Shown here: one piece after another, positions 13,146-58,295 of the stretch | Layout of the letters: every line of letters starts with the position of its first letter | Position numbering within the stretch: position 1 is the first letter of the stretch | NCBI GenBank assembly: GCA_946185535.1 | Contig: CAMHJX010000015.1 | Span: forward strand, 1 to 64,000 | DNA: 64,000 nt | Source: an uncultured Bacteroidales bacterium | GTDB lineage: Bacteria > Bacteroidota > Bacteroidia > Bacteroidales > F082 | Reading direction: 5' to 3' | Position numbers and translations under genes: made by a program | Notes under the pieces: generated by a model | The model's input: only the letters and a program-made list of their open reading frames with translations | Database searches by the model: none | What the model was told of the DNA's origin: nothing

Positions 13146-13150
13146 ACCTT

Positions 13151-35807: not shown

Positions 35808-35818
35808 ATTTTGTATTA

Positions 35819-36712: not shown

Positions 36713-37177
36713 TTATGATAGATTTTGTTTTTTTACCAAAACATTTCTTCGGAATGAAATAACATCTTCTCCTCTTTGATTATAACCGATGGTTTCAACA
36801 TAGATGATTCCTCGATCATTTTTCGATTTGGATTCTCGTTTATCTAATATTTTTGTACGTGCATAAAGAGTATCTCCAACAAAAGTAGGAGCAAGATGTT
36901 TTATATTCTCATACCCAAGATTAGCGATAGCCTTACCACTGATATCAGGTACTGTCATGCCAACCACCAAAGAAAAGACCAATGTTCCCACAACTAGTAA
37001 TTGGCCATGTTGGTTGTGACTAGCATAATCAACATTTGTATGCACTGGATGATGATTCATTGTAAGAAGTGAAAAGAAATTATTGTCACTTTCAAAAACT
37101 GTTTTTGAAAGAGCATGTTTTATCTCTTCCCCTACTTCAAAGTCTTCAAAGTAAAGACCCAAAACGCTTTGTTTCAT
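36713..37177 (-). CDS. MaoC-like hot-dog hydratase
   Basis: The 154-residue single hot-dog protein would hydrate or dehydrate an enoyl-CoA or enoyl-ACP. The usual R-hydratase motif SGDxNPxH is replaced by TMNHHPVH at about 39-46. That matches the subgroup with TMNxxPxH that I recall beside CitE-like genes and related to mesaconyl-CoA hydratases. The neighbourhood (two CitE-like genes downstream, KAS III upstream) supports a role in making or reshaping a branched or hydroxy acyl group. Exact reaction unknown. Confidence 0.8.
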   Translation of the reverse strand: MKQSVLGLYFEDFEVGEEIKHALSKTVFESDNNFFSLLTMNHHPVHTNVDYASHNQHGQLLVVGTLVFSLVVGMTVPDISGKAIANLGYENIKHLAPTFVGDTLYARTKILDKRESKSKNDRGIIYVETIGYNQRGEDVISFRRNVLVKKQNLS

Positions 37178-37231: not shown

Positions 37232-38287
37232 TCATATCTTCCCCACCTCCAGCACCACCATCTTCTGCGTCTTCAGAATCATCGTGCCCCAAGTGAGGCC
37301 GAGGCCAAAGGAAGAACAGACTAATGTCAGTGGACGGGATTGCAATTCTTCTCGGAGATTATAGGTCATCAGCATGGGCACAGAAGCACCGCCAAGGTTG
37401 CCAAATTCTTGGAGGTCATACGGAGTCTTCTCCAACGGAAGTTTCAATTTCTTCACGATTCTGTCCACAATCAGCTTGTTGGCCTGATGAATAAGGAAGA
37501 AGTCGACGTTATCGGTATTCAACCCATATTTCTCCATGAGGTTCTTGATGCTGATAGGTGGCCTCGAAATAGCAAAGGATAACACGCTCATGCCTTCTAT
37601 CAGCGTATCTTTGGGCGCACGAATGATGCCATTGCCAAAGTCTTCCTCGATGAACGACTCTGCCGTGATGGGATGACGATAGCCGCCATGCGGCGTAATC
37701 AAGGCCTGATAGCCAGAGCCTAACGTGTTGAACTCGATGACGATATCCTCAGCTGTCGGATCATACTCCAAAGCCATAGCCGTACCGCTGTCACCAAACA
37801 AAGGCACACGGCTCTTGTCTTTCAACGAACCCATGCGAAGCGCTGTATCGCCCACCAACAACAAAGCACGTTTTACCGTTCCAGCACTCAGCAGATTGCC
37901 CGCCACATTGATGGCGTACATACTGCCACAACACCCCATCGGAATGTCCAATACGAAAGTACTAGTCGGCAAGCCCATACGATGCTGCAAAATACCAGCT
38001 GTGGGAGGGGTCTTGTAGTCGCCCGTCACCGAACCAAACACCAGCACATCGACGCTTTCCTTCTCCCAACCCAAAGCAGCCAACAGACGCTCCGCCGCAT
38101 CTTGGCAGAGGTCGGAAGTGCAAAGGTCGTCAGGACCGATGTAACGGTTCTTGATGCCAACCGTGTTGTCAAAAATATCGGCTTCTTCTTGAGTGAAGAT
38201 GTCGAAGTCGGCAGTCTTCACCGCATGGTTCGGAACGGTGCCCGTCACGCCGCGCACTGCCACATTCTTGATTTCCCAAAGTGCCAT
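37232..38287 (-). CDS. 3-oxoacyl-ACP synthase III-like enzyme, copy 1
   Basis: The 351-residue thiolase-fold condensing enzyme carries the KAS III triad: Cys119 in MGCCGSM, His in FLIHQANK, and Asn in FGNLGGAS. KAS III joins an acyl-CoA or acyl-ACP starter to malonyl-ACP. The start overlaps the ACP stop by one base, so enzyme and carrier are coupled. The flanking residues GCCGSM differ from the ACSGF of housekeeping FabH, consistent with a specialised substrate. A housekeeping FabH would normally sit with plsX and rpmF, which are absent. Confidence 0.9.
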   Translation of the reverse strand: MALWEIKNVAVRGVTGTVPNHAVKTADFDIFTQEEADIFDNTVGIKNRYIGPDDLCTSDLCQDAAERLLAALGWEKESVDVLVFGSVTGDYKTPPTAGILQHRMGLPTSTFVLDIPMGCCGSMYAINVAGNLLSAGTVKRALLLVGDTALRMGSLKDKSRVPLFGDSGTAMALEYDPTAEDIVIEFNTLGSGYQALITPHGGYRHPITAESFIEEDFGNGIIRAPKDTLIEGMSVLSFAISRPPISIKNLMEKYGLNTDNVDFFLIHQANKLIVDRIVKKLKLPLEKTPYDLQEFGNLGGASVPMLMTYNLREELQSRPLTLVCSSFGLGLTWGTMILKTQKMVVLEVGKI

Positions 38288-38526
38288 TACAGTTCAATTT
38301 CGTATTTGCCGAGGATGGCCTTGGCGTTATCGTAAGAGGTGAACTCGAGGATGTCCTCAGGGTCGAGCATGATGTCGAAAGCGTCCTCAACAGCCGAAGT
38401 AAGGCTCAATTGGCGTACACTGTCCCAGCCATCGATGGCTTTGTTGTCGAAACCGGCACCTAAAGCCGAAACATCCACGGAAAACACTTCGCAGAAGATA
38501 TTGTTCAGTTTTTCTAAATTGTTCAT
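38287..38526 (-). CDS. Acyl carrier protein 1
   Basis: The 79-residue acidic helical protein has the phosphopantetheine Ser36 in GWDSVRQL, close to the standard DSL. It overlaps the downstream KAS III start and follows the acyl ligase gene by 23 bp, so ligase, carrier and condensing enzyme form one module. It would carry the acyl group loaded by the ligase. Confidence 0.85.
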   Translation of the reverse strand: MNNLEKLNNIFCEVFSVDVSALGAGFDNKAIDGWDSVRQLSLTSAVEDAFDIMLDPEDILEFTSYDNAKAILGKYEIEL

Positions 38527-38549
38527 GATTAAACTTTTATATTGATTGT

Positions 38550-39929
38550 TTATTGATTTATCACTTTTCCAGCTTCGTTGCGCAGAATTGCGTCAACAAA
38601 TTGTATCTCTATATTCTTGTGGAACAGATGGGTCTTGTCTTCGATGAAAGCAGGCAACACATCGACAAGCTCGGGCTTTGTGACGAGGACGATCAGCTTC
38701 TCATCATTGCCTTTGCAGTAACAGTCGGCCTTATATTCCGACTTGATGAGATTCTCCACCTCATCCAAGCCTATACGCAAACCGAAGATCTTCAGGAAGC
38801 GTTTCAAACGTCCCACAATGAAATAGCAACCGTCGACATCACGATGCGCCAAGTCGCCCGTGTGCATCACTCCATGGTTCTCATCACCTTTGAGCAGGTC
38901 TTCCCTACTATTGGCATAGCCCATTGTGACATTTTCGCCTCGATACACCATCTCACCGGTTGCTTCGCCTTCGAAGGTCTCATTACCATTCTCATCAACG
39001 ATGGACAACTGTCCTCCAGGCTCGGCAATGCCTATACTACAAGTTTTTTCCAAGGCCAATTCCGCAGGAAGATACGCCATACGTGCCGTGCATTCCGACT
39101 GTCCGTAGGTGGCGATGAACTTCTTGCCCTTGTCATACGCATATTGCGCTAAGGCCTTGAACATCTCCTCTGTCAACTTTCCACCCCCTTGGGTGATGAT
39201 TTGCAAGTTGGGCAAGTCCATCCTTGTAAAACGCATCTTCATCAGCAGCTCGTAACTGTATGGCACACCCGTGAAACTGGTAGCTTCTTTCAACATGGTC
39301 CAGAAGCCCCTGTCCAATAGGGAGCGGCCTGAGAGCAACAAAGTTGCGCCTGCCAACAAGTGGCTCGCGATGACAGAGAGCCCCATCGTGTAATGCATAG
39401 GCAAAATGGCCATGGCCTTTTCGGTGCCGTCCATTTGAAACATTCGCATCACATTATCGGCATTGGCCTCGATATTGTGCAGGCTGTGACGCACCAACTT
39501 GGGACTTCCTGTGGAACCCGAGGTAGGTAGAAGCAAGGCAAGGTCGGGATGCATGGCTACAGGGGCATTTCCTGTTTTCAATAAGGAGTAACCATGTGAC
39601 GAAAACACCTTTTCATAGCCCAGTTTCTCAACCATCCCATCAGGAGCCCAAAGGTATTCGGGCTGATAGAGATTGTATAAGGCGGTGAAAAGAGTCTCTT
39701 CCGTCTTGGCACTCAAAATGAGTAGTACAATGCCATTGGAAAGCGAACCCAGATAGCCCAACAAGGAACCATTGCAATTCTCGGCCAATAGGAAGATCAA
39801 CGACCGATTTGGCAGATGTTGCTTGAGCTCTTCTGAAAAGTCGCACAAGTCACCGTAGGTCAGCTGTTCTCCGCTATCGTCAATGACAGCTATCTTATCT
39901 TTTGGCTTTTTATCTAAATCTAAAAACAT
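38550..39929 (-). CDS. Acyl-activating AMP-dependent ligase
   Basis: The 459-residue ANL-superfamily enzyme activates a carboxylic acid as acyl-AMP and passes it to CoA or to an ACP. Motifs: LLPTSGSTGSPKLV (about 130-143), ATYGQSECTA, HTGDLAHRDVDG, IVGRLKRFLKIFG, and the final catalytic Lys in NEAGKVINQ. It is shorter than CoA ligases (usually above 500), closer to acyl-ACP-type ligases in polysaccharide and polyketide loci. Its position directly ahead of ACP1 suggests it loads that carrier. Confidence 0.85.
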   Translation of the reverse strand: MFLDLDKKPKDKIAVIDDSGEQLTYGDLCDFSEELKQHLPNRSLIFLLAENCNGSLLGYLGSLSNGIVLLILSAKTEETLFTALYNLYQPEYLWAPDGMVEKLGYEKVFSSHGYSLLKTGNAPVAMHPDLALLLPTSGSTGSPKLVRHSLHNIEANADNVMRMFQMDGTEKAMAILPMHYTMGLSVIASHLLAGATLLLSGRSLLDRGFWTMLKEATSFTGVPYSYELLMKMRFTRMDLPNLQIITQGGGKLTEEMFKALAQYAYDKGKKFIATYGQSECTARMAYLPAELALEKTCSIGIAEPGGQLSIVDENGNETFEGEATGEMVYRGENVTMGYANSREDLLKGDENHGVMHTGDLAHRDVDGCYFIVGRLKRFLKIFGLRIGLDEVENLIKSEYKADCYCKGNDEKLIVLVTKPELVDVLPAFIEDKTHLFHKNIEIQFVDAILRNEAGKVINQ

Positions 39930-40048
39930 TGTTTTCTCACAGAAATGATAGTATTGGTTTCACACAGAAAGCTCTTTATTTATCTCACACAGATACCACT
40001 GATTTCACTGATTATTATTGAGCTTAAAAGCTCAAATATTTGCCTAAA

Positions 40049-40420
40049 TCAATTTACTATCCGCTTAATACTTTCGCTTAAGTTACTTGTGTTGAAGTTG
40101 ACAAGAATACCTACATGTTTTTTGAGGAGTCTTAGGTAAGTAAGTAATTGTTTTGCAAACACCGGTTTCATTTCTTCAACCGACTTTAATTAAACAATAA
40201 CTTGGTTCTCAACCAATAAATCAAGTCGAAGGGGTGTTTTAAGCACAGTGTCCTTGTACACAACAGGAACCTCCTTCTGGCGAACCACATCTAAACCACG
40301 CTCTTTTAGCTCGAAAAACATAGCTTCTTCATAGACTGATTCGAGTAATCCAGGACCGAGTTCGTTATAAACGTCAAAAATGGCTCCTCTTATCTCGTAT
40401 GTTATTTCGTTGTCAGTCAT
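40049..40420 (-). pseudogene. GxxExxY protein broken by a stop codon
   Basis: The N-terminal part (start taken at 40420, MTDNEITYEIRGAIFDVYN) has the family signature GLLESVYEEA and LDLLVENQVIV. It then meets TAA at 40190-40192. Reading on in the same frame gives LKSVEEMKPVFAKQLLTYL and on to a second stop at 40049-40051, which is the normal C-terminal half. The stop replaces the Glu of the usual VELK motif, the likely catalytic ExK of a PD-(D/E)xK-type fold. One base change explains the break. Function of the family is unknown; the gene is unrelated to its neighbours. Confidence 0.8.
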
Positions 40421-40486
40421 ACGTACGTTCCACTCACCCACCGCCGCAAGGCAAGCATATCCGTGAAATCTGTGAAATCTGTGTGA

Positions 40487-41245
40487 TTAAATAGAAGCGC
40501 AGCCGTCCACACCCAATATATGTCCGCTGATATACGATGCCCTATCAGAAGCCAAGAAAGCCACTGCGTTGGCCACATCCTGAGGCGTGCCAAGGCGCCC
40601 AAGGGCAATACGACTGATGCGCTGATCAATCTTGTCGCCAGACGCTTCATAAAGCTCCTCAAAGCGTTCCGTCTTGATGATACCTGGAGCCACAGCATTC
40701 ACCCTGATTTGCATGGGTGAAAGCTCCTTCGCGGCACTCTTGGTGGCAGCGATGACCGCTCCTTTGGTAGAACTATAGGCCACCTGACCTGGTGAGCCAA
40801 CTACACCAGTAATTGAGGCAATGTTAACGATACTACCGCCACCCGTGCGAGCCATCAGACGCGAAACGATCTGCATCATATCGATGACGGCAAACACATT
40901 AACGGCATACATCTTTTCAAGCAACGGCTTGGTCACCATGCCCAACTTTTGGTTTTGGATGATAGCGGCGTTGTTCACTACCACATCTATCCGACCTTCG
41001 GTCTTGTGGATAGTCATCAGGCCATTCTTGAGTGCAGCACTATCCGTCACATCCATAACCATGGGCACTATACGAGTCTCGTTCTCCTTGGATTTTTCTG
41101 CGGCCCATTCTTCCATGTCGCCCAAGGCAAGGTCAGCGGCATACACCACCGCGCCATCAGCAGCAAGTTGGTTGGCAATCACACGGCCTATGCCACGACC
41201 TGCGCCAGTGACAAGGCAAATCTTTCCTGATAAGAGTCTTTCCAT
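40487..41245 (-). CDS. Short-chain dehydrogenase/reductase, copy 1 (FabG-like)
   Basis: The start at 41245 (MERLLSGKICLVTG) is chosen because it lies just after the stop of the upstream gene and begins right before the Rossmann motif. The 252-residue product has TGAGRGIG, NNAA, and the catalytic Ser and YSSTK of classical SDRs, and ends in GHILGVDG. It resembles 3-oxoacyl-ACP reductases and could reduce a beta-keto group made by the KAS III enzymes. It could instead act on a nucleotide sugar. Confidence 0.85.
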   Translation of the reverse strand: MERLLSGKICLVTGAGRGIGRVIANQLAADGAVVYAADLALGDMEEWAAEKSKENETRIVPMVMDVTDSAALKNGLMTIHKTEGRIDVVVNNAAIIQNQKLGMVTKPLLEKMYAVNVFAVIDMMQIVSRLMARTGGGSIVNIASITGVVGSPGQVAYSSTKGAVIAATKSAAKELSPMQIRVNAVAPGIIKTERFEELYEASGDKIDQRISRIALGRLGTPQDVANAVAFLASDRASYISGHILGVDGCASI

Positions 41246-41246
41246 C

Positions 41247-41990
41247 TTAATACAAAGTTTTTCCTCCATCAATAATAAGCGAATGGCCTGTCACCCATGA
41301 GGAAGCATCCGAGAGTAGGTAAACGATGGCCAAAGCCACATCACGAGGTTCGCCGTAGCGTTTCATGGGATAAGTTTCCATATCCTTAGCTTTGTCCTCA
41401 TCGGAATAAGCTCGTCCAGCAAGATTGGTATTGACCATGCCGGGGTTGACGCTATTGCAACGGATGCGCGGTGCGCCCTCCAAAGCCACATTACGCACAA
41501 ACACCTGCAAAGCACCTTTCGATGCACCATACATGGCATTTCCTGGAGCAGTGGTATAAACTCCTCCAATAGAAACGGTAAACACCAATGAAGCGTTGAC
41601 ATTGAACTTCTTTTTCTTCAACAAACGCTGCGTCAGATAGATGGGACCGTATGTATTGATGGACATGATCCGCTCAAGTGCCTCTTTACTAATCATCTTT
41701 ACTGGTGTAGGCTTAGTAACACCTGCGTTGCTCACAAAACCATCAAGCATAGGAAGCCTACTTACCAAATCATCCAAGGCTTCTTGTGAAGTCAAGTCGG
41801 CGGAAATACATTCATGCCCCTCGCCTTCCAGCAAAGCCTTTGTTTCGGTAAGACCTGTTTCATTGATATCAGTTAACACAAGTTTTGCTCCCAGTTTTGC
41901 ACATTCAATACTAGTAGCTCGCCCTATGCCTCCAGCAGCACCAGTGACTAGGATGGTCTTCCCTTCCAAGGAAAAAGGATTGTAGCTCAT
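41247..41990 (-). CDS. Short-chain dehydrogenase/reductase, copy 2
   Basis: The ATG at 41990 overlaps the ACP2 stop (ATGA), so carrier and reductase are translationally coupled. The 247-residue enzyme has TGAAGGIG, SNAGV, YGASK and TGHSLIIDGG. It resembles SDR copy 3 at 52697-53443 more than copy 1 (shared FSLEGKTILVTGA and C-terminus). The coupling to an ACP is the best evidence that it is an acyl-ACP ketoreductase. Confidence 0.87.
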   Translation of the reverse strand: MSYNPFSLEGKTILVTGAAGGIGRATSIECAKLGAKLVLTDINETGLTETKALLEGEGHECISADLTSQEALDDLVSRLPMLDGFVSNAGVTKPTPVKMISKEALERIMSINTYGPIYLTQRLLKKKKFNVNASLVFTVSIGGVYTTAPGNAMYGASKGALQVFVRNVALEGAPRIRCNSVNPGMVNTNLAGRAYSDEDKAKDMETYPMKRYGEPRDVALAIVYLLSDASSWVTGHSLIIDGGKTLY

Positions 41991-42223
41991 TGTTCCGCCT
42001 TTTTCTGGACAAGATTGAACAAATCCTCGATGGTGACACACGATTTCATCTCGTTGCCATCAATGGTAACATTGTACTCCTCATCAATCATCAAAATGAG
42101 AGAGAGAGCAATTAGCGAAGTGTATTCCTCCAAGTCGTGGAACACGGTTTCAGGCTTGAATTCGCTAATGTCGGTTTCATCAAACTGTTCAGCGAAATGT
42201 TCGATAAATTCTTTGATCTCCAT
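41987..42223 (-). CDS. Acyl carrier protein 2
   Basis: The 78-residue product is ACP-like with Ser36 in LEEYTSLIAL as the likely phosphopantetheine site. The preceding residue is Thr where most ACPs have Asp. It is related to ACP3 at 55179 (shared TIEDL(F/Y)xLV C-terminus and acidic N-terminus). It is coupled to the SDR by an ATGA overlap and lies 25 bp after the PglD-like gene. Confidence 0.82.
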   Translation of the reverse strand: MEIKEFIEHFAEQFDETDISEFKPETVFHDLEEYTSLIALSLILMIDEEYNVTIDGNEMKSCVTIEDLFNLVQKKAEQ

Positions 42224-42248
42224 ATTAATTTATGTGTTTATTAAGATT

Positions 42249-42878
42249 TTACATCAGTTTTTTTGCCGGATTACCCATAACGGTTGTTCCAGCCTTTACT
42301 TTCTTAATCACGAAGCTGCACGCCCCCACATGAGCGCCACTCTCCACTTTTACGTTGTGGCTAATGACCGCTCCTGTATGGATATTCACGTCATCTTCCA
42401 CTATAGTGCCCCCCACACAGGTGACATGGGTATCTATGCGGTTCCAACTGCCGATACGGGCATCATGGCCAATAACTGTATAGGACTGAATCATATTGTA
42501 GTCACCCACTACGGCATCATTACCAATTACGGTATAGGCTCCTATGAAATTACCCTTACCAAGTTGGGCATTGGTATAAATTCTCGCCATTTTGTGTACC
42601 AACTGCAAAAACTCGCCTCCTCTGGCAATGATTTCTTCCATGCAAGGTCTTCGCGCCGCTCCACCGATAGAGGAGACAAACACATCATCTGCTTGTGGTT
42701 GATAGTTTTTGATGGTGCCAATAATGGGAGGATAATTGGGATAACCATCCAATGCATTCAAGTCGTCGTCAATAAAGCCTTTAATATCGAAGGTCTCTCC
42801 GTAGCCGACACTCTCAAGGGCATTACTATATATGGTGCGACCCATACCGCCAGCACCAATGATGATTAGATGTTTCAT
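42249..42878 (-). CDS. PglD-like sugar N-acyltransferase, copy 1
   Basis: The 209-residue product has the PglD plan: an N-terminal Rossmann-like sugar-binding part (LIIIGAGGMGRTIY) and hexapeptide repeats from about 95 to 200, ending GTTVMGNPAKKLM. PglD-type enzymes acylate the 4-amino group of UDP-amino sugars. The adjacent ACP2 raises the possibility that the donor is an acyl-ACP rather than acetyl-CoA; that is inference. Its start overlaps the glycosyltransferase stop. Confidence 0.88.
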   Translation of the reverse strand: MKHLIIIGAGGMGRTIYSNALESVGYGETFDIKGFIDDDLNALDGYPNYPPIIGTIKNYQPQADDVFVSSIGGAARRPCMEEIIARGGEFLQLVHKMARIYTNAQLGKGNFIGAYTVIGNDAVVGDYNMIQSYTVIGHDARIGSWNRIDTHVTCVGGTIVEDDVNIHTGAVISHNVKVESGAHVGACSFVIKKVKAGTTVMGNPAKKLM

Positions 42879-44035
42879 ACTCGTTGTTTCTTTTTTTCTA
42901 TTTCTTCCTCAAAAATGCCTTCTAATTGCCTTGCAATGCTTTGTGGAGCAAAACGGCGATTGCATTCCTCAATAATTGTTTCAGGATTGTAGCAGTCATA
43001 ATTATTATACATAGTTTTCAAGGCTTTTGTCAAAGCATCAACATCTTCAATAGGTATCAACAAACCATTTTCTTTATTTACAAATTCATCCGGTCCTCCA
43101 CAATCCGTAGCTATTACAGGAAGACCTTGCGACATAGCCTCAATATAAACAACGCCAAATGTTTCAGCACGAGAAGCAAGTACAAAAGCATGACTTTCTT
43201 TCATCAACTCGATTATTTCCTGCTTGTTCTTACGACCAACCAATGTGATTTTTTCTATTAAGCCACATTCATCTATTTGCTTTTGCAATCTTTCTCGTTC
43301 TTCTCCATCACCGATTATAGACAAAATACAACCTTGTTCTGCAAGGCCAGATTTCGAAAATGCTTCTATCAGTAAATCAAATCCCTTTCTGTGTATAATA
43401 CTACCTACTGAAACAAACCTAAAAACATTCTCTATTTTCTTTTTTGTAACGGAAGCGTCAACAAATTCCTCACCCAACATATCATAAACCACTTCTGCAT
43501 CTTTGTTGAAATGGCGTTTGATATGTTTTTTCAAACTTTCAGATACAGCCAAAAGCCTGTCAACCATATTATATGCTGTGTTTCCACAAATTGCAAGTGT
43601 CTTAGGAAGCGTTGGCTGATTAAGCCTTGACCAATGCTCTATACCAACTATCGGAATTGATGGGTATTTTCTGTGTACCTTTCCCAAATCGTACATATTA
43701 AACAGATAGTGGGCATAAATCAAATCAGGTTTACCGTGAAAACATTCAATATGTTGAAACAATTTTTTCATCATCACTTGCCGCACACGTCGACGGATCC
43801 TCTCAATATGAAATACTGCCATTGGAAGCCAATAAATAAGATATGTAGGGATTCCATCTATTGACCCTTCAGTAATTCCTTTTTTACGTTTTTCTTTCCT
43901 ATATCTTCCATCAATCGCTGAAATAATCACATTATGTCCCATTTTTTTCAAAGCGCGAGCCTGATCCAATTCAAAGCAACCCCATTGAGGATCGTTTTCT
44001 GAAGGAATACCATGAGAAACAATCAAAATATTCAT
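42875..44035 (-). CDS. GT4-family glycosyltransferase
   Basis: The 386-residue GT-B enzyme transfers a sugar from a nucleotide donor to the growing lipid-linked unit on the cytosolic face. Evidence: VSVGSIIHRKGFDLLIEAF, IIGDGEERERL, and the EX7E motif ETFGVVYIE followed by GLPVIATDCGGPDEFV. It is the only clear glycosyltransferase in the window, so the other linkages are probably made by genes beyond the right edge. Confidence 0.92.
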   Translation of the reverse strand: MNILIVSHGIPSENDPQWGCFELDQARALKKMGHNVIISAIDGRYRKEKRKKGITEGSIDGIPTYLIYWLPMAVFHIERIRRRVRQVMMKKLFQHIECFHGKPDLIYAHYLFNMYDLGKVHRKYPSIPIVGIEHWSRLNQPTLPKTLAICGNTAYNMVDRLLAVSESLKKHIKRHFNKDAEVVYDMLGEEFVDASVTKKKIENVFRFVSVGSIIHRKGFDLLIEAFSKSGLAEQGCILSIIGDGEERERLQKQIDECGLIEKITLVGRKNKQEIIELMKESHAFVLASRAETFGVVYIEAMSQGLPVIATDCGGPDEFVNKENGLLIPIEDVDALTKALKTMYNNYDCYNPETIIEECNRRFAPQSIARQLEGIFEEEIEKKKQRV

Positions 44036-44130
44036 AATAGTTAGGCTGTTATCTTAATTTCATATTACCGAGTTGTGTTTGTAATAAACCATATTACTTG
44101 TTTTTTTGACATATTATGTCTATTCTTTTT

Positions 44131-45273: not shown

Positions 45274-45350
45274 TACTACGCCTTGAATTACAATGTTTTA
45301 GATAATTTATATAGACTAAATCTTTATTCGATTTGTTTATATTTCTTTCG

Positions 45351-46157: not shown

Positions 46158-46172
46158 AACGGTTTTATTTGT

Positions 46173-47378: not shown

Positions 47379-47405
47379 AATCGTAGCTTCTAAACAATTA
47401 GATCA

Positions 47406-48608: not shown

Positions 48609-48619
48609 TAATCAAAAAA

Positions 48620-49747
48620 CTATATATGCAACAAATGCTCAATCCCTACAATGGCTGTTTCTCGGTTCTGTTCTGAACGCAGCGTATGGAGCGCAAACAT
48701 CAAATCTCTTTCGTTGTATTTATACAACCACTTTTTGTAAGCAGCAGGAAAAAATCTTTTCAATTTCAACCTCAATTTTGAGGGACTTCTGAAAGCAGTA
48801 AGATATAAACGCAACTCTTTGTCGCAGAACTTCTGCAATTCTTGATACACATAATCCTCGTCTCCAACCTTATTCGAACGTGCATTGAATTCCAACAAAT
48901 CCTGCTGTTCGTCATAGCGCACAAAGAGGTTGTCAACAGATTTAACCTTGTGTTTTTTGATCTGAACTTGCCCGTTCTCAATGACTAATTCCACAATTAA
49001 CCCTGTATCCGTTAGTCCTGGAGCAAAGTTCTTGAGCAAGAAATCACCTTGACCATAAAGTAGATACGATCCATTGTAATATTCCTCACATCCAATGCAA
49101 TGCGTATGCTGAGCAAGAATCAAATCCGCACCGCAATCAGCCATACGATGAAAGCGTTTTCTCGTCTCAGGCGATGGATAGTGGAACTTTTCAATTCCAC
49201 CATGATATAACACCACTAAATAATCGCATTGTTTCTTCAACTGTTCCAACTCTCGACAAACCACATATTCGTCATACAACCAAGCTCCTGCGGTATTGTC
49301 TGTAGGTTTGTTATACATGGTTTCACTGACATTGTAGAAACCGATGTTTATTCCACCAACTTCCTTAACAAACGAACGGACTATTTCATTTTCATTTTTG
49401 CCAGCACCGATATGCCTAATTCCAGCATTATCCAAAGTGCGCATCGTATCTATCATGCCTTGGTGTCCACCATCTGTGGCATGGTTGTTGGCTAAAAGAC
49501 ACAGATCTATTCCCAGTTTCTTGTAAGCTTCAACGGCCGATGTTGTTGCCACTTTAACTGGGCCAGTTTTTCTGCATTTGTCAGGATGGTCGGTCAATGC
49601 GCCTTCGAGATTACAAATGGTGAAATCCGCACTAGAAAACAATTGTGTTATTACTTTGCCGAACAATGAGTCCGTGTCACCCTTTGAAAAGAATGAAACA
49701 TTTTGTTCGGTAGGGAACAGATCGCCGACAATAAGAATAGTATTCAT
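48620..49747 (-). CDS. CapA-like metallophosphatase-fold protein, copy 1
   Basis: The ATG at 49747 (MNTILIVGDLFPTEQ) is the sensible start; the longer frame adds a poor N-terminus. The 375-residue product has the CapA/PgsA pattern of a metallophosphatase fold: GDLF, CNLEG, LANNHATDGG and AQHTHCIG. CapA proteins take part in poly-gamma-glutamate and other amide-linked polymer production. Its position between two ATP-grasp ligases supports a shared amide-forming or -processing pathway. Confidence 0.82.
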   Translation of the reverse strand: MNTILIVGDLFPTEQNVSFFSKGDTDSLFGKVITQLFSSADFTICNLEGALTDHPDKCRKTGPVKVATTSAVEAYKKLGIDLCLLANNHATDGGHQGMIDTMRTLDNAGIRHIGAGKNENEIVRSFVKEVGGINIGFYNVSETMYNKPTDNTAGAWLYDEYVVCRELEQLKKQCDYLVVLYHGGIEKFHYPSPETRKRFHRMADCGADLILAQHTHCIGCEEYYNGSYLLYGQGDFLLKNFAPGLTDTGLIVELVIENGQVQIKKHKVKSVDNLFVRYDEQQDLLEFNARSNKVGDEDYVYQELQKFCDKELRLYLTAFRSPSKLRLKLKRFFPAAYKKWLYKYNERDLMFALHTLRSEQNRETAIVGIEHLLHI

Positions 49748-49802
49748 TTTACTTGTTCTATGGATACAACTGAATATTAATAATGGAAGAAAAAAAACTC
49801 CT

Positions 49803-51017
49803 TTACTTGCCAAACAATTGTTTGACGGTTCTCTTAAAGAACTTTTTTCTAAAATCCCTCATAAAAACTTTTTGAGGCTGAGTATCGTTTTCGTCATCAA
49901 TAAAATTAATCTGAGAAGTCTTTTTTAGATGTAAAAAGGCCTTGGTACTCATATATCCATTATACCAATCGTCAAAAGCCATCCTTTCGTTGAAAAATGT
50001 TGCACTTTGAACAATCTTCTTATTCAGGTCATCAATGTTTTCACCTAAAAATGATTTAATCATCATTACCGGCAGGTTGACTCCGGTTTTGGTATAAGCA
50101 TATCCCGAGCCTCCAAAGCGCATATTAATCTCAGCAAAATAGATCAAGCCTTCGCTTTCATAAAAATCGATGTCAAAAATGCCAACAAAACCAATCTTTT
50201 TAATAAGCTGTGAAAATTTCTCTATAAGGTCATTGTCTTCTGCGGGAAAAACCTTGCCTTGCACTGCTACGCCGAAATGCGTTCCGTGAGCCAATTGCAA
50301 GATTTCGATAATTCCGGGAATCACAACCTCTTGTCCGTCAGAAAAACCCAGCAAAGCAAATTCCCTATTAATCTTCTTAAAATCCTCAACTAGAAGTTTT
50401 ATGTTTCTATACCTTTCATTCAAAGTGGGCAATTGAGTCAGATGTTTTTCCAACTCCATTCTATTATTGCATTTTTTCAAGCCCAACTTTGCTCCTACCA
50501 AAGAAACTAACGGCTTTGCAAAGCATGGATACGAAATGGTGTCAGGGATGATGTATTTCCCATCCTTAATTTCGATGACCAAAGAATTCGGCACATGTAG
50601 TCCAACTTCTTGGGCCAATTGTTTTTGACGCTCTTTATTCATCCATTCCACAACAGCACCTTGTTTCCAATTGATATTTGGACAATAAAAATGATCTTTC
50701 AAGACATCCAATGACTGGTCGATGGCTGCCGCAGAAAAATCGTTATCAGGAAAAATGAAAGTCTTTTGGTTAGGGTCAACACATTGAGTAAGAAGCAAAT
50801 CGATAAGCATTTCCTTATTGTATGTCTCACAATACAAGGTACGATTCACGTATTTGCTATATGCGTCTATTGGTTTGTCCTCCACTAAACCTCCATTAGT
50901 CTTGTTGCGATGTGTCAGTACAATAAGCGTAATGTCACATCCTATTTCAGCGACGGAGCGGACAATACTTAACCTTCCTGTGAATCCTTGACCTATAATA
51001 ACAACTTTATTTTTCAT
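49803..51017 (-). CDS. ATP-grasp ligase, paralogue 3
   Basis: This 404-residue third member of the triplet has VVIIGQGFTGRLSIVRSVA, KPIDAYSKYV, FAKPLVSLVGAKLGLKKC and FAEINMRFGGSGYA. It is separated from paralogue 2 by the CapA-like gene. Like the others it would join a carboxylic acid to an amino group with ATP. The three-fold copy number suggests stepwise addition of more than one residue, or alternative acceptors. Confidence 0.82.
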   Translation of the reverse strand: MKNKVVIIGQGFTGRLSIVRSVAEIGCDITLIVLTHRNKTNGGLVEDKPIDAYSKYVNRTLYCETYNKEMLIDLLLTQCVDPNQKTFIFPDNDFSAAAIDQSLDVLKDHFYCPNINWKQGAVVEWMNKERQKQLAQEVGLHVPNSLVIEIKDGKYIIPDTISYPCFAKPLVSLVGAKLGLKKCNNRMELEKHLTQLPTLNERYRNIKLLVEDFKKINREFALLGFSDGQEVVIPGIIEILQLAHGTHFGVAVQGKVFPAEDNDLIEKFSQLIKKIGFVGIFDIDFYESEGLIYFAEINMRFGGSGYAYTKTGVNLPVMMIKSFLGENIDDLNKKIVQSATFFNERMAFDDWYNGYMSTKAFLHLKKTSQINFIDDENDTQPQKVFMRDFRKKFFKRTVKQLFGK

Positions 51018-51042
51018 TAAAAACAGTTCTTAAACAATAACA

Positions 51043-51690
51043 TCAACCAATACCTAACTTTCTGGAAACCTTTCTACAAATAAATGAAATCATCCGGGAA
51101 CGCTCAATTCTTCCTGGCTTATATTGCCACTTGGTCAATCTCTCCGACCATTTGCAACGTTTATTGATATACTCATCCGAAAAAGGGCATCCATTAAGCC
51201 ATTTCACTATCCTTACTGAATAATGGTCAGAGTTTTTTGGAGCAAAATAGGCAACCACTTTATACCCATCTTTTCCTAGCACCTTCAAAATAGTGTGATT
51301 GTTTTCTGCTGTGTCACCTTGATTCATATCAGCTCCGTGAGCTAAGGTATAGTCATATTTCAAGGCATTCATGTCCTCCAAAATACCAATTCCTTGGTAT
51401 TGATTTAATATGCCAGTGAAACACCCATGGGCCACTTTTTTCCCTTTGTTCCACCAGTTTTTTCCTTGGAAGAATGTGACCGATGTGGTACCGACTAATT
51501 TATCTCCGTCCATGGCCACCCAACACTCACCTTCTTCGCCCAGCATTTCTTTGATTTGGTCGCCTGTCATTTGAGAATAACCTAAAACTATTCCTTTTTC
51601 ATAGTTTTTTTTATGTGCTGCAGCCAACAGTTCATGGATGTCATCGTATGAAACCCAATCGGGCTTGGGCATTACTTTTATATCTTCCAT
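51043..51690 (-). CDS. GNAT-like N-acyltransferase
   Basis: The 215-residue product looks like a GNAT-fold acyltransferase: ECWVAMDGDKLVGTTSVTF is the typical beta-strand pair, and a central segment around TGILNQYQGIGILEDMN is in place of the acyl-CoA-binding loop. GNAT enzymes move an acyl group from CoA (sometimes ACP) to an amine. It is packed between the ATP-grasp triplet and a membrane acyltransferase gene (1 bp away), so it probably modifies the same glycan. Confidence 0.65.
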   Translation of the reverse strand: MEDIKVMPKPDWVSYDDIHELLAAAHKKNYEKGIVLGYSQMTGDQIKEMLGEEGECWVAMDGDKLVGTTSVTFFQGKNWWNKGKKVAHGCFTGILNQYQGIGILEDMNALKYDYTLAHGADMNQGDTAENNHTILKVLGKDGYKVVAYFAPKNSDHYSVRIVKWLNGCPFSDEYINKRCKWSERLTKWQYKPGRIERSRMISFICRKVSRKLGIG

Positions 51691-51691
51691 A

Positions 51692-52693
51692 TCATTTATT
51701 TTTTTCAGTTTTAAAACCTTGCATCAACTTATCATAACCAAATTGGATATAATATGACAGCACCAACATCACAGGAAAAACGACACCTGCCATATAGAGC
51801 CATTTCAACCAAACAGTCGATGGATTCCAAATCATTTCACCTGCCCAAAAGAAAAAGCGGTGGAACATATAACAGGCCATGCTCGCATAACTTACATTTT
51901 TAATTAACGAGCCAATTGGCGAGACCACATTACTTGCATTATGACGAAACACCATGTTAGCAATATACTCACAAACAAACAAGAGAGCAAATACGCCAAC
52001 AAATGCTGAAGTTCTTTTAAACAACACGTTTGGTGTCTTTAAAAAGGTTACGGATAGTAATCCAACAAAAAACACCACTACTACCCACTTTATCCATTTA
52101 CGATTCTCAAATTTCCAATTAAAATAAGGCGCTGTAACCAAACCCACAATATATAACGACATGTTAAATAGGAATCTAAAATCTAACGGATGGATATAAT
52201 TCCGTATAAACCAAACTATTAACAACATTCCAGCTCCTATTGTCAAACGCCATGCAAATGACTTTCTACTAATGAAAGGAGTAATGAAATAGCACCAAAG
52301 TATAACAGGTATATACCACAGTGTCATTGGCCTAGGTGTTGTGAACGGGGATATGCAAAGCACACCATTCAAGGTGGCTTTGACACTATTAAAGCCAATC
52401 AAATAGAGGATGACTGCAGCAAGCAGAAAAAGCGGTATGATTCGCAAAACACGTTTCTTATAGAAAGGCCATATCCTTGTGTTGCCATCTTCTCCAAAAG
52501 AATACTTGCCGCCAAGAAGATAACCAGAAGCAAATGTGAAGAGGCCCAAACAAGAATTAGTTAAAATGGCAAACACTGGATGCACATAAATCGCAGAAGT
52601 TACTTCTGGATGTATGTATGCCCACAAATGCACAAACGCGACAATAAAAGACATACACAAAACACGTGCAACATCAAATCGGTAATCTCTCAT
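51692..52693 (-). CDS. Membrane acyltransferase 3 (OafA-like)
   Basis: The 333-residue protein has about ten membrane helices and the acyltransferase-3 N-terminal pattern MRDYRFDVARVLCMSFIVAF with His shortly after (VHLWAYIHPE). Such proteins O-acylate surface polysaccharides, taking the acyl group from cytosolic acyl-CoA across the membrane. Both the acyl group and the target sugar are unknown. Confidence 0.85.
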   Translation of the reverse strand: MRDYRFDVARVLCMSFIVAFVHLWAYIHPEVTSAIYVHPVFAILTNSCLGLFTFASGYLLGGKYSFGEDGNTRIWPFYKKRVLRIIPLFLLAAVILYLIGFNSVKATLNGVLCISPFTTPRPMTLWYIPVILWCYFITPFISRKSFAWRLTIGAGMLLIVWFIRNYIHPLDFRFLFNMSLYIVGLVTAPYFNWKFENRKWIKWVVVVFFVGLLSVTFLKTPNVLFKRTSAFVGVFALLFVCEYIANMVFRHNASNVVSPIGSLIKNVSYASMACYMFHRFFFWAGEMIWNPSTVWLKWLYMAGVVFPVMLVLSYYIQFGYDKLMQGFKTEKNK

Positions 52694-52696
52694 ATA

Positions 52697-53443
52697 TCAA
52701 TGTATTGTATATCCGCCATCAATTACCAACGAGGTACCTGTAACCATTTGCGAGGCATCCGACATGTAGTAAATCACGGCGTATGCAATTTCTTCCGGTC
52801 TGGCAAATCGGCCCAAAGGATAGTTGCTCCGGATTTCGCTCAATGTTTCCTCGCTATACTTGTGAATCATCTCCGTTTCGACGAATGCAGGTTGAATGCA
52901 ATTCACTCGGGCTTTAAGCGGCAATACCTCAAGCGCCAAAACTTTGGCGAACTGATTGACTGCCGCTTTTGAGGCAGCATACATTGCATTGGATACCGAA
53001 GGATAGAACGCAGAAACAGATGACATGAATACAATAGAGGCTTGTTTGGCTATTTTTTTATCTTTCAGTAAAGATTTGACCAACATAGCAGGTCCTGAAA
53101 GATTTGTCGAAAGCATCTTTGACACATACTCATCATCAATCTTCTTGATGATCATTTTGTCATTGATGCCAGCAATTAAAGCGATTCCATCCAATACCGA
53201 AACTTCTTCTGCCAATTTCTGAATATCTTCTAAATTGGTCATATCAGCCGTTATGATGCAATGATTACCCGGAGCCATTTCCGAAAGTGTCTGTTCCAAC
53301 CGCTCTTTATTGCGTGCCGAAAGAAAGACATTGGCACCCATTTTAGAACATTCGATGGCAGTTGCCTTCCCTATTCCAGAAGATGCGCCTGTGACCAAAA
53401 TGGTTTTACCTTCAAGACTGAAAATAGCGTTATTCATGCTCAT
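52697..53443 (-). CDS. Short-chain dehydrogenase/reductase, copy 3
   Basis: This 248-residue classical SDR has FSLEGKTILVTGASSGIG, the catalytic Ser in SSVSAF, YAASK, and TGTSLVIDGGYTIH at the end. It is a paralogue of SDR copy 2 at 41247. It sits 3 bp after the second PglD-like gene, in the second acyl module (FabD, ACP3, KAS III copy 2). It is a candidate beta-ketoacyl-ACP reductase. Confidence 0.87.
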   Translation of the reverse strand: MSMNNAIFSLEGKTILVTGASSGIGKATAIECSKMGANVFLSARNKERLEQTLSEMAPGNHCIITADMTNLEDIQKLAEEVSVLDGIALIAGINDKMIIKKIDDEYVSKMLSTNLSGPAMLVKSLLKDKKIAKQASIVFMSSVSAFYPSVSNAMYAASKAAVNQFAKVLALEVLPLKARVNCIQPAFVETEMIHKYSEETLSEIRSNYPLGRFARPEEIAYAVIYYMSDASQMVTGTSLVIDGGYTIH

Positions 53444-53446
53444 TAA

Positions 53447-54031
53447 TTATAGTTCGATTTTTTTTGCAGGATTACCTAGGACCGTCTCACCATCTTTCAC
53501 TTTGCGACTTACTACACTGCCCGCTCCAACTGTACAGCCCTCCCCTATTTTCACATCTGGATAGATGATGGAACCCGTAAAAAGAGATGTGCGTGTCCCA
53601 ACTTTGTTTCTGCCACATAATTTAACTCCCACGTATAGATGTGAACCTTGTTCAACAACACCATCATGTCCAATATTACAGTGGTCTTGTATCAAAACGT
53701 CATCATGAATATTGGTATTAATAGAAACCGTAGTGAATGCACCAACGACGACTCCCGTACCTAAAACACAAGATGGTGCGATATTAGCAGATGGATGAAT
53801 AATATTGACAAAATGCCCACCTTTTTCACGTATGATACGAGTTTTTTCGACCCTATCTGAAGGTTTTGATTCAGCACATACAAAAACATCATCCGGTTCA
53901 ATCTGATAATCATCTACATTATCAATATGACATTTAATATCCCATTCAACAAGATAATCTTTACAGATAGAAGCGTACCAATGTACGATTTGACCTACAT
54001 TGCCTTTCCCTATAATAATCAAATGTTTCAT
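53447..54031 (-). CDS. PglD-like sugar N-acyltransferase, copy 2
   Basis: The 194-residue product has an N-terminal Rossmann-like part (LIIIGKGNVGQIVHWY) and hexapeptide repeats (CVLGTGVVVGAFTTV, IQDHCNIGHDGVV), ending GETVLGNPAKKIEL. It is a paralogue of the copy at 42249 and again lies between an SDR and the KAS III/ACP pair. The repeated pairing of a PglD-like transferase with an ACP module suggests each module makes the acyl group its own transferase uses. Confidence 0.87.
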   Translation of the reverse strand: MKHLIIIGKGNVGQIVHWYASICKDYLVEWDIKCHIDNVDDYQIEPDDVFVCAESKPSDRVEKTRIIREKGGHFVNIIHPSANIAPSCVLGTGVVVGAFTTVSINTNIHDDVLIQDHCNIGHDGVVEQGSHLYVGVKLCGRNKVGTRTSLFTGSIIYPDVKIGEGCTVGAGSVVSRKVKDGETVLGNPAKKIEL

Positions 54032-54036
54032 AAATT

Positions 54037-55104
54037 TTATAATGTCATTAGATCAGGAATCAATATTTTACCATGAGTTTTTATTTGGGCTACACCAAGT
54101 GAGAAACCAACACCAATGGTCGCAGCGAGCAAATTAAGAGGTCTATCATACAACTCATGTTGTAACTCTGTAACCATTAATAATGGAATAGTTGCGCCAC
54201 TAGTATTACCAAATTCCTGTATGTTATAAGGCACCTTTTCAGGAGGAAACTTCAACTTCTTGCGTAGTTTCTCACAGAGGAACTTATTGGCCTGATGCAA
54301 CAGTAGATAGTCAACCTCATCAGGCTCGATATTAAACTTAGCACGCATCTCTTCATAAACCTTTGGGATGAAATGTGTACCGTAAGAGAACACCTCGTCG
54401 CCAATCATCTTCTCATGCAAGCGGGTGCGACGGATGCCGTTGCCACAATCTTCCATAATAAACGATTTTTCGTTGACAGGGTTGCGCGAGCCACCGTCAG
54501 GCAAGATAACAAATTCTCGTCCTGATCCATCGGACATATAGGTGATGTTGATCTCGTCTTTCGAATTCGGGTCATACTCAATAGCCGTAACCGTACCGGC
54601 ATCGCCAAGTAGGAGTGTCATGCTGCGGTCTTCTGGACTAGCGTATTCCGACTGGGTGTTACCCACCATCAGTAATCCTTTGCGGAAAGAACCCGAAGAC
54701 ATCAAGTTGCCCATCACGCCAAGTCCCACAAGGAAACCAGAGCATCCAAGAGTGATGTCAAAAGCAAGACAAGAGGTTGGAATACCCATCTTATCCTGCA
54801 ACACAATTCCTGTAGCAGGGAGTTTATAGTCTGTGGTGTGTGAAACAAAAACTAAAAGATCGATTTCGCTCTTATCCCAGCCAAGGTCTGCCAAGAGTTT
54901 TTCAGCCGCTTTCTGACACAAGTCGGAAGTGCAAATGCTTCCATCGTGTATGGCGCAATGACGGCGAACAACGCCTGTTGCATTGATATATTTCTGGATT
55001 TCTTCAGGGGTCATGCCAGGATAATCCTTGTTCTCTTGTACACGTTCAGGTACACACCCAGCCATGCCTTTAATAGCAATATTTTTTACACTAATTGATG
55101 ACAT
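54037..55104 (-). CDS. 3-oxoacyl-ACP synthase III-like enzyme, copy 2
   Basis: The ATG at 55104 (MSSISVKNIAIKGMAGCVPE) is preferred; the longer frame would overlap the ACP3 gene. The 355-residue enzyme has Cys121 in LGCSGFLVG, His in LLHQANK and Asn in FGNTSGAT. It is closer to ordinary FabH around the cysteine than copy 1. It would use an acyl starter and malonyl-ACP supplied by the FabD at 55450. Confidence 0.9.
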   Translation of the reverse strand: MSSISVKNIAIKGMAGCVPERVQENKDYPGMTPEEIQKYINATGVVRRHCAIHDGSICTSDLCQKAAEKLLADLGWDKSEIDLLVFVSHTTDYKLPATGIVLQDKMGIPTSCLAFDITLGCSGFLVGLGVMGNLMSSGSFRKGLLMVGNTQSEYASPEDRSMTLLLGDAGTVTAIEYDPNSKDEINITYMSDGSGREFVILPDGGSRNPVNEKSFIMEDCGNGIRRTRLHEKMIGDEVFSYGTHFIPKVYEEMRAKFNIEPDEVDYLLLHQANKFLCEKLRKKLKFPPEKVPYNIQEFGNTSGATIPLLMVTELQHELYDRPLNLLAATIGVGFSLGVAQIKTHGKILIPDLMTL

Positions 55105-55132
55105 ATATTCAAATTTACATTTTGGAAGAAAG

Positions 55133-55165
55133 GGAAGCACACACTCAGTAACAATGTGTGCTTCC
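55133..55165. promoter_or_regulatory. Perfect 11-bp hairpin between ACP3 and KAS III copy 2
   Basis: GGAAGCACACA (55133-55143) pairs perfectly with TGTGTGCTTCC (55155-55165) around an 11-base loop. It lies in the 74-bp gap between the ACP3 stop and the KAS III start. No T-tract follows on the minus strand, so it is more likely an RNA stability or processing hairpin than a simple terminator. Confidence 0.6.
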
Positions 55166-55178
55166 AAAAGGTTTTGGT

Positions 55179-55406
55179 TTACTTTGACTCCACGAGATGA
55201 TACAGGTCCTCGATAGTTGTACAATTACGCAGGTCAGCGCCAGTAACGCGCTTGTCCATCTCATCATCAACCATCGAAATGATTGAAAGCGCTACTAATG
55301 AGCCCCACTCATCCAATTCTCTATATTTGGTTGCTGGGGTGAATTGTTCTGCCGGTGTGTCATCAAACTCGGCGGCAAATGCTTTTACAAATTCATCTAA
55401 TGTCAT
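55179..55406 (-). CDS. Acyl carrier protein 3
   Basis: The 75-residue product is ACP-like with Ser36 in LDEWGSLVAL; Gly replaces the usual Asp before Ser. It is related to ACP2. It lies between FabD and KAS III copy 2, as in a compact malonyl-ACP-using module. It probably needs a 4'-phosphopantetheinyl transferase encoded elsewhere. Confidence 0.82.
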   Translation of the reverse strand: MTLDEFVKAFAAEFDDTPAEQFTPATKYRELDEWGSLVALSIISMVDDEMDKRVTGADLRNCTTIEDLYHLVESK

Positions 55407-55449
55407 AATATAAAAATTTAAAGTGAAAAATATTGTTAATTGATACTAT

Positions 55450-56397
55450 TTAGCCTTCTTTGATCACTGAATAATCCTTAATTTTACCTTCATAAAATGG
55501 AATGTGAAGTAATGAGCTTACATAAGCGTGAGGCTTCATGCGATTCACTATTTTTTGAAGCGTATCATCAGTACCGACCTCATAATAGTGTGTCACTCCA
55601 TCGGCATCCATATTGTTAACCATATCCGTCCACAACACACTGCTGGTGATATGTTCAATTAAGTTAGCACGCAACTCGTCAGGATTGGTATGCGGCTTGG
55701 CATCCACACATTGATAAATGGGGATGCGAGGTGTTTTAAACTCCACTTCATTGATGATAGCACCCAACTCTTTTTTAGCCTCGTTCATAAAAGGTGAATG
55801 GAATGAGCCTCCGATGGCCAACGGCACAGCCTTCTTGGCACCTTCGGCCATAAAGGCCTTGCAGGCCATGCGTACACCTTTCTTGGTGCCAGTGATGACT
55901 ACTTGACCCGGACCATTGTGGTTGGCAAAATAAATAGCCTCACCCGTTTCATCCCAAATCTCTTTGATACGCTTGGCTACATATTCGTCTGAAAGACCAA
56001 TGACCGCGCCCATGCCAGTTTTTACCGGAGCGTTCTCGTATGCCTTTTGCCCAATCAATGCACGGTTAAGTACTAGCTTCAATCCATCTTCAAGTGAGAT
56101 GGCACCAGCAATCACTAATGCGGCAAATTCTCCAAGTGAATGCCCTGCCACTACATCAGGAATAATCTCATCCTGAGCCATTGCCAAGGCCACCTCATAT
56201 ATAAACACGGAGGGCTGTGTATTGCGTGTTTCCATCAGTTCCTCTTCCGTACCATGAAACATCACATCGGTAATCTTCCAACCGAGTGCCTCATCAGCAC
56301 GGTCAAACAATTCTTTCGCTTTGGGAGAGAAGACATACAAATCCTTTCCCATCCCTTCTTTCTGGCAACCTTGACCTGGAAATATAAATGCTTTCAT
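55450..56397 (-). CDS. Malonyl-CoA:ACP transacylase (FabD-like)
   Basis: The 315-residue enzyme transfers malonyl from CoA to an ACP. It shows GQGCQ at the N-terminus, the nucleophile Ser87 in GHSLGE, the substrate Arg in LNRALIGQ and His in GGSFHSPF near 202. It is complete and of normal length. Because it sits in the polysaccharide operon next to ACP3, it is probably dedicated to that carrier, which implies malonyl extension and not just transfer of a ready-made acyl group. Confidence 0.93.
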   Translation of the reverse strand: MKAFIFPGQGCQKEGMGKDLYVFSPKAKELFDRADEALGWKITDVMFHGTEEELMETRNTQPSVFIYEVALAMAQDEIIPDVVAGHSLGEFAALVIAGAISLEDGLKLVLNRALIGQKAYENAPVKTGMGAVIGLSDEYVAKRIKEIWDETGEAIYFANHNGPGQVVITGTKKGVRMACKAFMAEGAKKAVPLAIGGSFHSPFMNEAKKELGAIINEVEFKTPRIPIYQCVDAKPHTNPDELRANLIEHITSSVLWTDMVNNMDADGVTHYYEVGTDDTLQKIVNRMKPHAYVSSLLHIPFYEGKIKDYSVIKEG

Positions 56398-58293: not shown

Positions 58294-58295
58294 TT

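Follow-up and report, generated by a model that had tools for sequence, protein, structure and literature searches.

The window analysed here, a 64,000-nt stretch of contig CAMHJX010000015.1 from an uncultured Bacteroidales bacterium (F082; assembly GCA_946185535.1), contains part of a polysaccharide locus whose acyl-metabolism genes all lie on the minus strand. Judged by gene order and spacing, the long minus-strand gene run was read as one operon. We lean, by a small measure, towards the explanation that this is an operon for a Wzx/Wzy-type surface polysaccharide with three modules for acyl supply, which probably build unusual short acid decorations for coat sugars. Module 1 combines an acyl ligase, a ketosynthase and two acyl carrier proteins (ACPs), module 2 a dedicated FabD with one ACP, and module 3 a MaoC-family protein with two CitE-like lyases. 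Each of the three gene blocks was also found apart from the others among more than 100 related loci, and the gene order of the acyl modules was common to many genomes, more than expected by chance.

Gene content

The first-pass annotation had listed three ACPs, two β-ketoacyl-ACP synthases III (KAS III), FabD, three short-chain dehydrogenases/reductases (SDRs), a ligase, a MaoC hydratase and two PglD-like acyltransferases. All were present, and the families of the ACPs, KAS III, FabD, SDRs, ligase and acyltransferases were confirmed with Pfam. Its proposal of acyl modules with separate carriers, one of them with a ligase, beside VioB/PglD-like acyltransferases was supported, and the same gene order, sought in other Bacteroidales loci as it had suggested, recurred in many genomes. 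Two CitE-like lyase genes (34914-36703) had been overlooked and alter the reading. PF00550 scored above its cut-off in ACP1, ACP2 and ACP3, all three of which keep the attachment Ser; the genome has one match to a phosphopantetheinyl transferase. Gene content, recurrence, separability, the attachment Ser and the CitE residues were observed directly, and all substrates and products named below are predictions.

Module 1: ligase, two carriers and KAS III

The genes of module 1 were as follows.

37232..38287, minus strand, KAS III copy 1 (KAS1; PF08541/PF08545)
38287..38526, minus strand, ACP1, GWDS-type carrier (PF00550)
38550..39929, minus strand, AMP-forming acyl ligase (LIG; PF00501 and family alignment)
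40487..41245, minus strand, SDR1 reductase (PF13561/PF00106)
41247..41990, minus strand, SDR2 reductase of the extender block (PF13561; start at internal ATG 41990)
41987..42223, minus strand, ACP2 of the extender block (PF00550)
42249..42878, minus strand, PglD1, VioB/PglD-like acyltransferase (PF17836 and PF00132)

The coupled overlaps described earlier were found again: ACP1 and KAS1 share 1 base (at 38287), and ACP2 and SDR2 share 4 bases provided SDR2 begins at the internal ATG 41990. ACP1 is only 16-19% identical to ACP2 and ACP3. KAS1 copies of 73-99% identity occurred at 10 places in nine other genomes (149 genomes searched, own included), and LIG and ACP1 were present in 10/10 of these loci.

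A scan with the ligase alignment kept 80 loci out of 100 encoding a relative. Locus L124 was dropped (no intact ligase), as were 21 of the remaining 79 with short flanks, leaving 58 loci flanked by 5 kb or more in both directions. In the best 35 ligase loci (L089-L123, titled Bacteroidales or its members or parents), an SDR stood immediately upstream of LIG in 30, ACP1 at most two genes downstream in all 35, KAS immediately after ACP1 in 30 and an ACP2-class gene at most five genes upstream in 31. Of the 35 loci, 23 kept the strict order SDR-SDR-LIG-ACP1-KAS. Within 8 kb, ACP1 was found in 58/58 and an SDR in 57/58 of the well-flanked loci. Within 10 kb, KAS III, the ACP2 class and at least two SDRs occurred together in 37/58; KAS III and ACP2 were both missing in 21/58, and one without the other was never seen (0/58). 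On the ligase tree, KAS presence changed four times and ACP2 changed in the same direction each time (4/4); the tree does not separate gain from loss of the extension block. Outside Bacteroidota, 19 loci had flanks of at least 5 kb; ACP1 was found in all of these, an SDR in 18 of them and KAS in a single one, and LIG-ACP1-SDR1 was found alone in some taxa.

The joint presence or absence of KAS III and the ACP2 class suggests that module 1 is a ligase-loaded starter on ACP1 followed by one malonyl extension, the extension block being all-or-none. LIG would activate a small carboxylic acid and load ACP1, and SDR1 would reduce the keto form, either ACP1-bound or free. KAS1 would then condense the starter with malonyl on ACP2, a step suggested by the same joint presence, SDR2 would reduce the condensation product to a β-hydroxyacyl-ACP2 and PglD1 would transfer the β-hydroxyacyl group to an amino sugar.

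Alternatively, LIG and ACP1 could deliver the acid itself, KAS1 merely shuttling the acyl group from ACP1 to ACP2 without condensation. That LIG-ACP1-SDR1 can suffice is indicated by loci that have the starter unit and a PglD-like gene but lack KAS (Butyricimonas synergistica L125, Desulfosporosinus L133 and L134). This alternative was considered quite improbable: the Cys-His-Asn set of KAS1 is apparently full (by eye), and in 37/37 loci KAS III and ACP2 come with two or more SDRs, as expected for a new keto group needing reduction, although this last point is tempered by the 5/21 KAS-less loci that also have two SDRs.

In L144 (Brevinematales), a transketolase half, LuxE and LuxC adjoin ACP1 and LIG (Pfam), and L145 (Lachnoclostridium) resembles it by eye. 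In each of these two loci, ACP1, LIG and an SDR form one row with transketolase halves, LuxE and LuxC. Both could possibly be an aldehyde-making branch of the same starter unit. In the window itself, a short insertion resembling a broken gene of the GxxExxY type lies between SDR1 and LIG (40050-40500).

Module 2: FabD and ACP3

The genes of module 2, with the membrane acyltransferase that follows SDR3, were as follows.

55450..56397, minus strand, FabD, dedicated malonyl transferase (PF00698)
55179..55406, minus strand, ACP3 (PF00550)
54037..about 55104, minus strand, KAS III copy 2 (KAS2; PF08541/PF08545; start set by eye at MSSISVKN)
53447..54031, minus strand, PglD2, VioB/PglD-like acyltransferase (PF00132)
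52697..53443, minus strand, SDR3 reductase (PF13561/PF00106)
51692..52693, minus strand, membrane acyltransferase (Acyl_transf_3; PF01757)

The operon FabD is a second genome copy, 46% identical to the other. A search of 149 genomes of the family gave 15 further places with FabD copies exceeding the level of the usual FabD. In 12 of 13 stretches, an ACP3-type carrier came next after FabD or was separated from it by one small gene, and SDR and KAS genes followed in either order; the exception, L219, has its ACP, KAS and SDR genes upstream of FabD. Of the two further places, G125 (L073) fits the ACP3 pattern and G109 (L084) does not, so that FabD goes with an ACP3-type carrier and KAS/SDR genes in 13/15 places overall. 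A part for FabD as general malonyl supplier is not supported; its company is instead that of the ACP3-type carriers. FabD as the supplier of module 1 was also considered and rejected, a FabD gene being near the ligase in 3/79 ligase loci.

The sister locus in G125 matches the window unevenly (PglD2 and SDR3 at 94-96% identity, ACP3 at 81%, FabD and KAS2 at 49-50%), which is a sign of part exchange. The Acyl_transf_3 gene has the same position in L214 and L216. In L218, a protein that is FkbH-like by eye and has no Pfam match lies at 11664-13538 near a FabD-ACP-SDR-KAS module, which suggests glyceryl-type starters in related loci.

The segment 52697-56397 brings together an ACP, a KAS III, a reductase and a hexapeptide N-acyltransferase in one glycan locus, the gene set of the acp-vioS-vioR-vioB module described below. 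By this analogy module 2 is a putative system of a known kind, the 3-hydroxybutyryl type, and module 1 is a variation on that kind. FabD would charge ACP3 with malonate, KAS2 would add an acetyl starter, SDR3 would reduce the product, and PglD2 or the neighbouring membrane acyltransferase would transfer the 3-hydroxybutyryl group.

Modules 1 and 2 could also form a single pathway, in which 3-hydroxybutyryl-ACP3 is extended by KAS1 on ACP2 to 3,5-dihydroxyhexanoyl while the ligase merely salvages released acid. The wfpC-G set of Flavobacterium psychrophilum and the 3,5-dihydroxyhexanoyl group seen by nuclear magnetic resonance (NMR), as given in the available part of the report (PMC6519341), speak for such a pathway, as do the loci with more than one KAS and SDRs around the ligase (L077, L084, L126, L130-L132). 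Each module was, however, found without the other in relatives, and the two have separate acyltransferase neighbours in the window. A single pathway was rated unlikely, if less so than a non-condensing KAS1. The window departs from the wfpC-G pattern of two ketosynthases and one ACP: it has two KAS III and three ACPs, which fall into two classes, and a different ACP adjoins each KAS.

Module 3: MaoC and CitE-like lyases

The genes of module 3 and the adjacent acyltransferase were as follows.

36713..37177, minus strand, MaoC-family hydratase/dehydratase (PF19315/PF01575)
35819..36703, minus strand, CitE-like lyase a, HpcH/HpaI; lid Asp replaced by Gly274 (residue table)
34914..35807, minus strand, CitE-like lyase b, HpcH/HpaI; same Asp-to-Gly change (PF03328; residue table)
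34388..34891, minus strand, hexapeptide acyltransferase beside module 3 (PF00132)

MaoC sits just outside the range first annotated (37232..56397), and both CitE-like genes directly adjoin it. MaoC was found in 16/295 genomes of the order, own included (E up to 1e-25). The module 3 sample comprised 22 loci (the window, six loci of the genus and 15 of the order), and MaoC adjoined CitE in 21 of them. MaoC, earlier assigned to the KAS/ACP modules, thus travels with the CitE-like lyases. A role as KAS/ACP dehydratase was rejected: in five loci of the genus MaoC-CitE stood without module 1 or 2 in the fetched stretch, and no ligase, KAS III or ACP2-type match was found beside it in the stretches of G108 (34 kb), G076, G125:C5, G118:C32 and G092:C25 (20 kb each). 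The G076 stretch does contain an ACP1-like match, though a weak one (33%), and at a distance of 7-8 kb another MaoC, which is only distantly similar. Among the 80 ligase loci, MaoC-CitE occurred in L090 and L102, and CitE only in L106.

The CitE-like proteins have the TIM barrel with C-terminal lid, and both window copies keep the metal-site Glu and Asp, the substrate Arg and the Glu-Asp pair. At the lid position, where malyl-CoA lyases carry a catalytic Asp, 25 MaoC-linked CitE proteins have 22 Gly, three Ser and no Asp, and both window copies are among those with Gly. Not counted in the 25 are three distant second CitE-like proteins, whose lid residue is Glu. The lid Asp is kept in 23/23 other CitE homologues compared, a control set of homologues with loci from which weaker matches were left out. 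This residue (Asp299/Asp318) is described as conserved across the CitE-like superfamily, except for Glu in one thioesterase cluster, in the part of the source available (PMC3832036). Without this Asp, the MaoC-linked proteins should carry out the C-C step differently from known malyl-CoA (coenzyme A) lyases. By its predicted proteins, module 3 is the most unusual of the three, with a sharp residue-level anomaly.

A hexapeptide acyltransferase lay at most two genes from module 3 in 16/22 loci, compared with 70/264 for other genes of the same loci. In a tree of 40 acyltransferases (17 near CitE, 23 near ACP/KAS; genes near both block kinds or neither, and lengths outside 180-260 residues, were left out), the neighbourhood changed twice, against a shuffled mean of about 13, and 0/500 shuffles were as low. 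MaoC and the two CitE-like lyases would produce or modify a hydroxyacyl thioester, either branched or dicarboxylic and of citramalyl, methylmalyl or malyl type, and the hexapeptide acyltransferase would add its acyl group to the glycan. Malyl and 2-hydroxyglutaryl amides are known in O-antigens, according to the accessible part of PMC3210612.

Only tentatively, and with clearly less confidence than for the three modules as such, we propose that gut and rumen Bacteroidales glycan loci carry exchangeable mini assembly lines, among them a ligase-primed two-carrier synthase for a starter and one extension, and a MaoC-CitE pair of an Asp-less clade that would form the branched or dicarboxylic thioesters by another route, for instance through an enolate from decarboxylation. 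If the enolate arose in this way, no proton abstraction from the acyl carbon would be needed.

The least probable of the alternatives weighed here makes module 3 a remnant of catabolism, of the RipB-RipC type that degrades itaconate or citramalate, in the operon by chance. The best NCBIfam model for MaoC is indeed RipB_Ich (NF038241; 151.6 bits, cut-off 340), and CitE b matches the CitE and RipC models (117.3 bits for RipC_Ccl, NF038242, cut-off 375), all below the curated cut-offs. Against a remnant stand the loss of the lid Asp of the catabolic enzymes and the recurrence near hexapeptide acyltransferases that group apart from the ACP-linked ones; no CoA-transferase was recognised among the neighbour genes listed (by eye, without a family scan).

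Second CitE-like proteins of 23-25% identity were seen at L192:8116-8946, L195:8533-9375 and L200:8067-8894; their lid residue is Glu, and no substrate Arg aligns. The distant protein of L200 is part of one run (6619-11201) that also has MaoC-CitE, a gene that is LUD-like by eye and one for a PanB homologue (PF02548).

Acyltransferases and acceptor sugar

TIGR03570 (NeuD/PglB/VioB) was the best model for both PglD-like proteins, at 146.4 bits for PglD1 and 132.4 bits for PglD2, below its cut-off of 160.8. The best PDB match of PglD1 was VioB (7txp). DegT-like genes were found in 27/43 ligase loci checked. In general, an amino-sugar amide is thus the likely form of the acyl groups; for the window operon it is putative only and unproven.

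A bacillosamine-like acceptor had been proposed. No DegT aminotransferase (PF01041) match was found on the contig, so this acceptor is not supported; PglF-type dehydratases were not searched for. Six DegT matches lie elsewhere in the genome, on contigs C1 and C2. The 5′ end of the operon, past the window end, has RmlA-like and RmlB-like genes (names assigned by eye; Pfam NTP_transferase and GDP_Man_Dehyd). RmlA and RmlB together lead to dTDP-4-keto-6-deoxyglucose.

The acyl groups could be placed elsewhere than on an amino sugar, either on glycan hydroxyls via the membrane acyltransferase or on amino acids attached by ATP-grasp enzymes. The missing DegT match fits this, as do the weakly matched ATP-grasp proteins, ATPgrasp_ST, two CapA-like proteins, LicD and Acyl_transf_3 of the same locus. 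The preference of PglD1 and PglD2 for the NeuD/PglB/VioB model, though below cut-off, and the DegT-like genes of the ligase loci point back to an amino sugar, and we rate the other acceptors as unlikely, on a level with a single pathway of modules 1 and 2.

Points against the three-module explanation

Several results weigh against the explanation by three modules. For module 1, the link between KAS III and ACP2 comprises only four independent changes (sign test, p 0.125, not significant allowing for phylogeny; with four pairs the test cannot reach significance). KAS occurs without an ACP2-class gene within 8 kb in 2/79 loci, L116, which acquires one when the range is 10 kb, and L128, whose flanks are short. 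The two SDRs of some KAS-less loci belong here too. The PDB matches of LIG are distant and mixed, with oxalyl-CoA synthetase first. Carriers or products could be common to modules 1 and 2, and in G109 (L084) FabD lies beside module 1, not beside ACP3. For module 3, the acyltransferase profile took its seeds partly from tested loci; in the 15 order-level, seed-free loci a hexapeptide acyltransferase was near in nine and absent in four. The acyltransferase tree has long branches meeting (a warning was given) and weak deep support, and the window's own gene (34388-34891) was too short and thus outside it. Ordinary malyl- or citramalyl-CoA chemistry is disfavoured because the lid Asp is lost in both CitE copies. 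With no DegT match on the contig, the acceptor amine is unexplained.

Other genes of the locus

Beside the RmlA-like and RmlB-like genes, the 5′ end has cytidylyltransferase and octopine-dehydrogenase-like genes. Downstream of the latter lie Wzx-type flippase, CapA-like, ATP-grasp, LicD, Wzy and glycosyltransferase genes, and the last gene of the operon is the initiating sugar transferase.

62045..63523, minus strand, Wzx-type flippase, same locus (PF13440/PF01943)
33765..34373, minus strand, initiating sugar transferase (Bac_transf; PF02397)

The segment 46173-51017 encodes three ATP-grasp-like proteins, the first two of them separated by a CapA-like one. Similar runs occur in L073 and L076, and the window proteins are possibly amino-acid amide ligases. 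The 215-residue protein of 51043-51690 is GNAT-like by eye and recurs in relatives; it had no match in Pfam or NCBIfam. A DUF4276 and AAA ATPase pair, which we take to be defence-like, lies within the polysaccharide locus (57664-59471). The tRNA-Ser called by ARAGORN at 63736-63834 was rejected as a probable false call, being inside the octopine-dehydrogenase-like gene on the opposite strand.

Comparison with known systems

The 3-hydroxybutyryl module, the two-ketosynthase module and the ACP, ligase and reductase sets of flagellin islands are already published, so this part of the earlier claim of newness falls. No description of a ligase-primed two-ACP module, or of MaoC-CitE in polysaccharide loci, was found in the literature searched (supplementary files not covered). 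Acyl groups on amino sugars help set the antigenicity of bacterial coats. Strains of F. psychrophilum that differ in predicted acyl-group genes differ in lipopolysaccharide antigenicity (available part of PMC6519341). If the three-module explanation is true, Bacteroidales alter coat chemistry by swapping small acyl cassettes, and the decoration could be predicted from the sequence of the locus. A residue reported as conserved superfamily-wide is put directly to the test by the Asp-less CitE clade.

The closest described system to module 2 is the viosamine island of Pseudomonas syringae pv. tabaci, as presented in the accessible part of PMC3927599. There acp, vioS, vioR and vioB serve 3-hydroxybutyryl viosamine, as mass spectra of a vioR mutant indicate, and loss of the reductase removes the modified sugar. 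KAS III, reductase, ACP and N-acyltransferase are common to both; in P. syringae the 3-hydroxybutyryl group is placed on a dTDP-4-amino sugar for a flagellin glycan. Unlike the window, the seven genes given there include no FabD, ligase, second carrier or CitE/MaoC.

The Flavobacterium precedent was upheld. In F. psychrophilum, the predicted products of wfpC-wfpG are a pair of ketosynthases, a single ACP, a single reductase and a homologue of PglD; the O-antigen has 3,5-dihydroxyhexanoyl, the acyl group seen by NMR, on Qui2NAc4N (PMC6519341, available part). The window shares the two ketosynthases, ACP, reductase and PglD homologue; the F. psychrophilum locus differs in having one ACP, no ligase named in that part, and pglE and pglF.

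Enterobacterial flagellin glycosylation islands carry Acp, CaiC ligase, FabG, LuxE and LuxC (PMC4875605, available part). They resemble the starter unit of module 1, and L144, in bringing an ACP, a ligase and a reductase into glycan loci. Unlike the window they have no ketosynthase listed there; LuxC and LuxE were not seen in the window operon.

Module 3 resembles the malyl-CoA/citramalyl-CoA lyases and RipB-RipC, as far as these are covered in the accessible parts of PMC3832036 and PMC6689899, in its TIM barrel, C-terminal lid, Arg/Glu/Asp positions and pairing of hydratase with lyase. It differs from them in the Gly or Ser that replaces the lid Asp, in scores far below the cut-offs and in its place in polysaccharide loci near acyltransferases.

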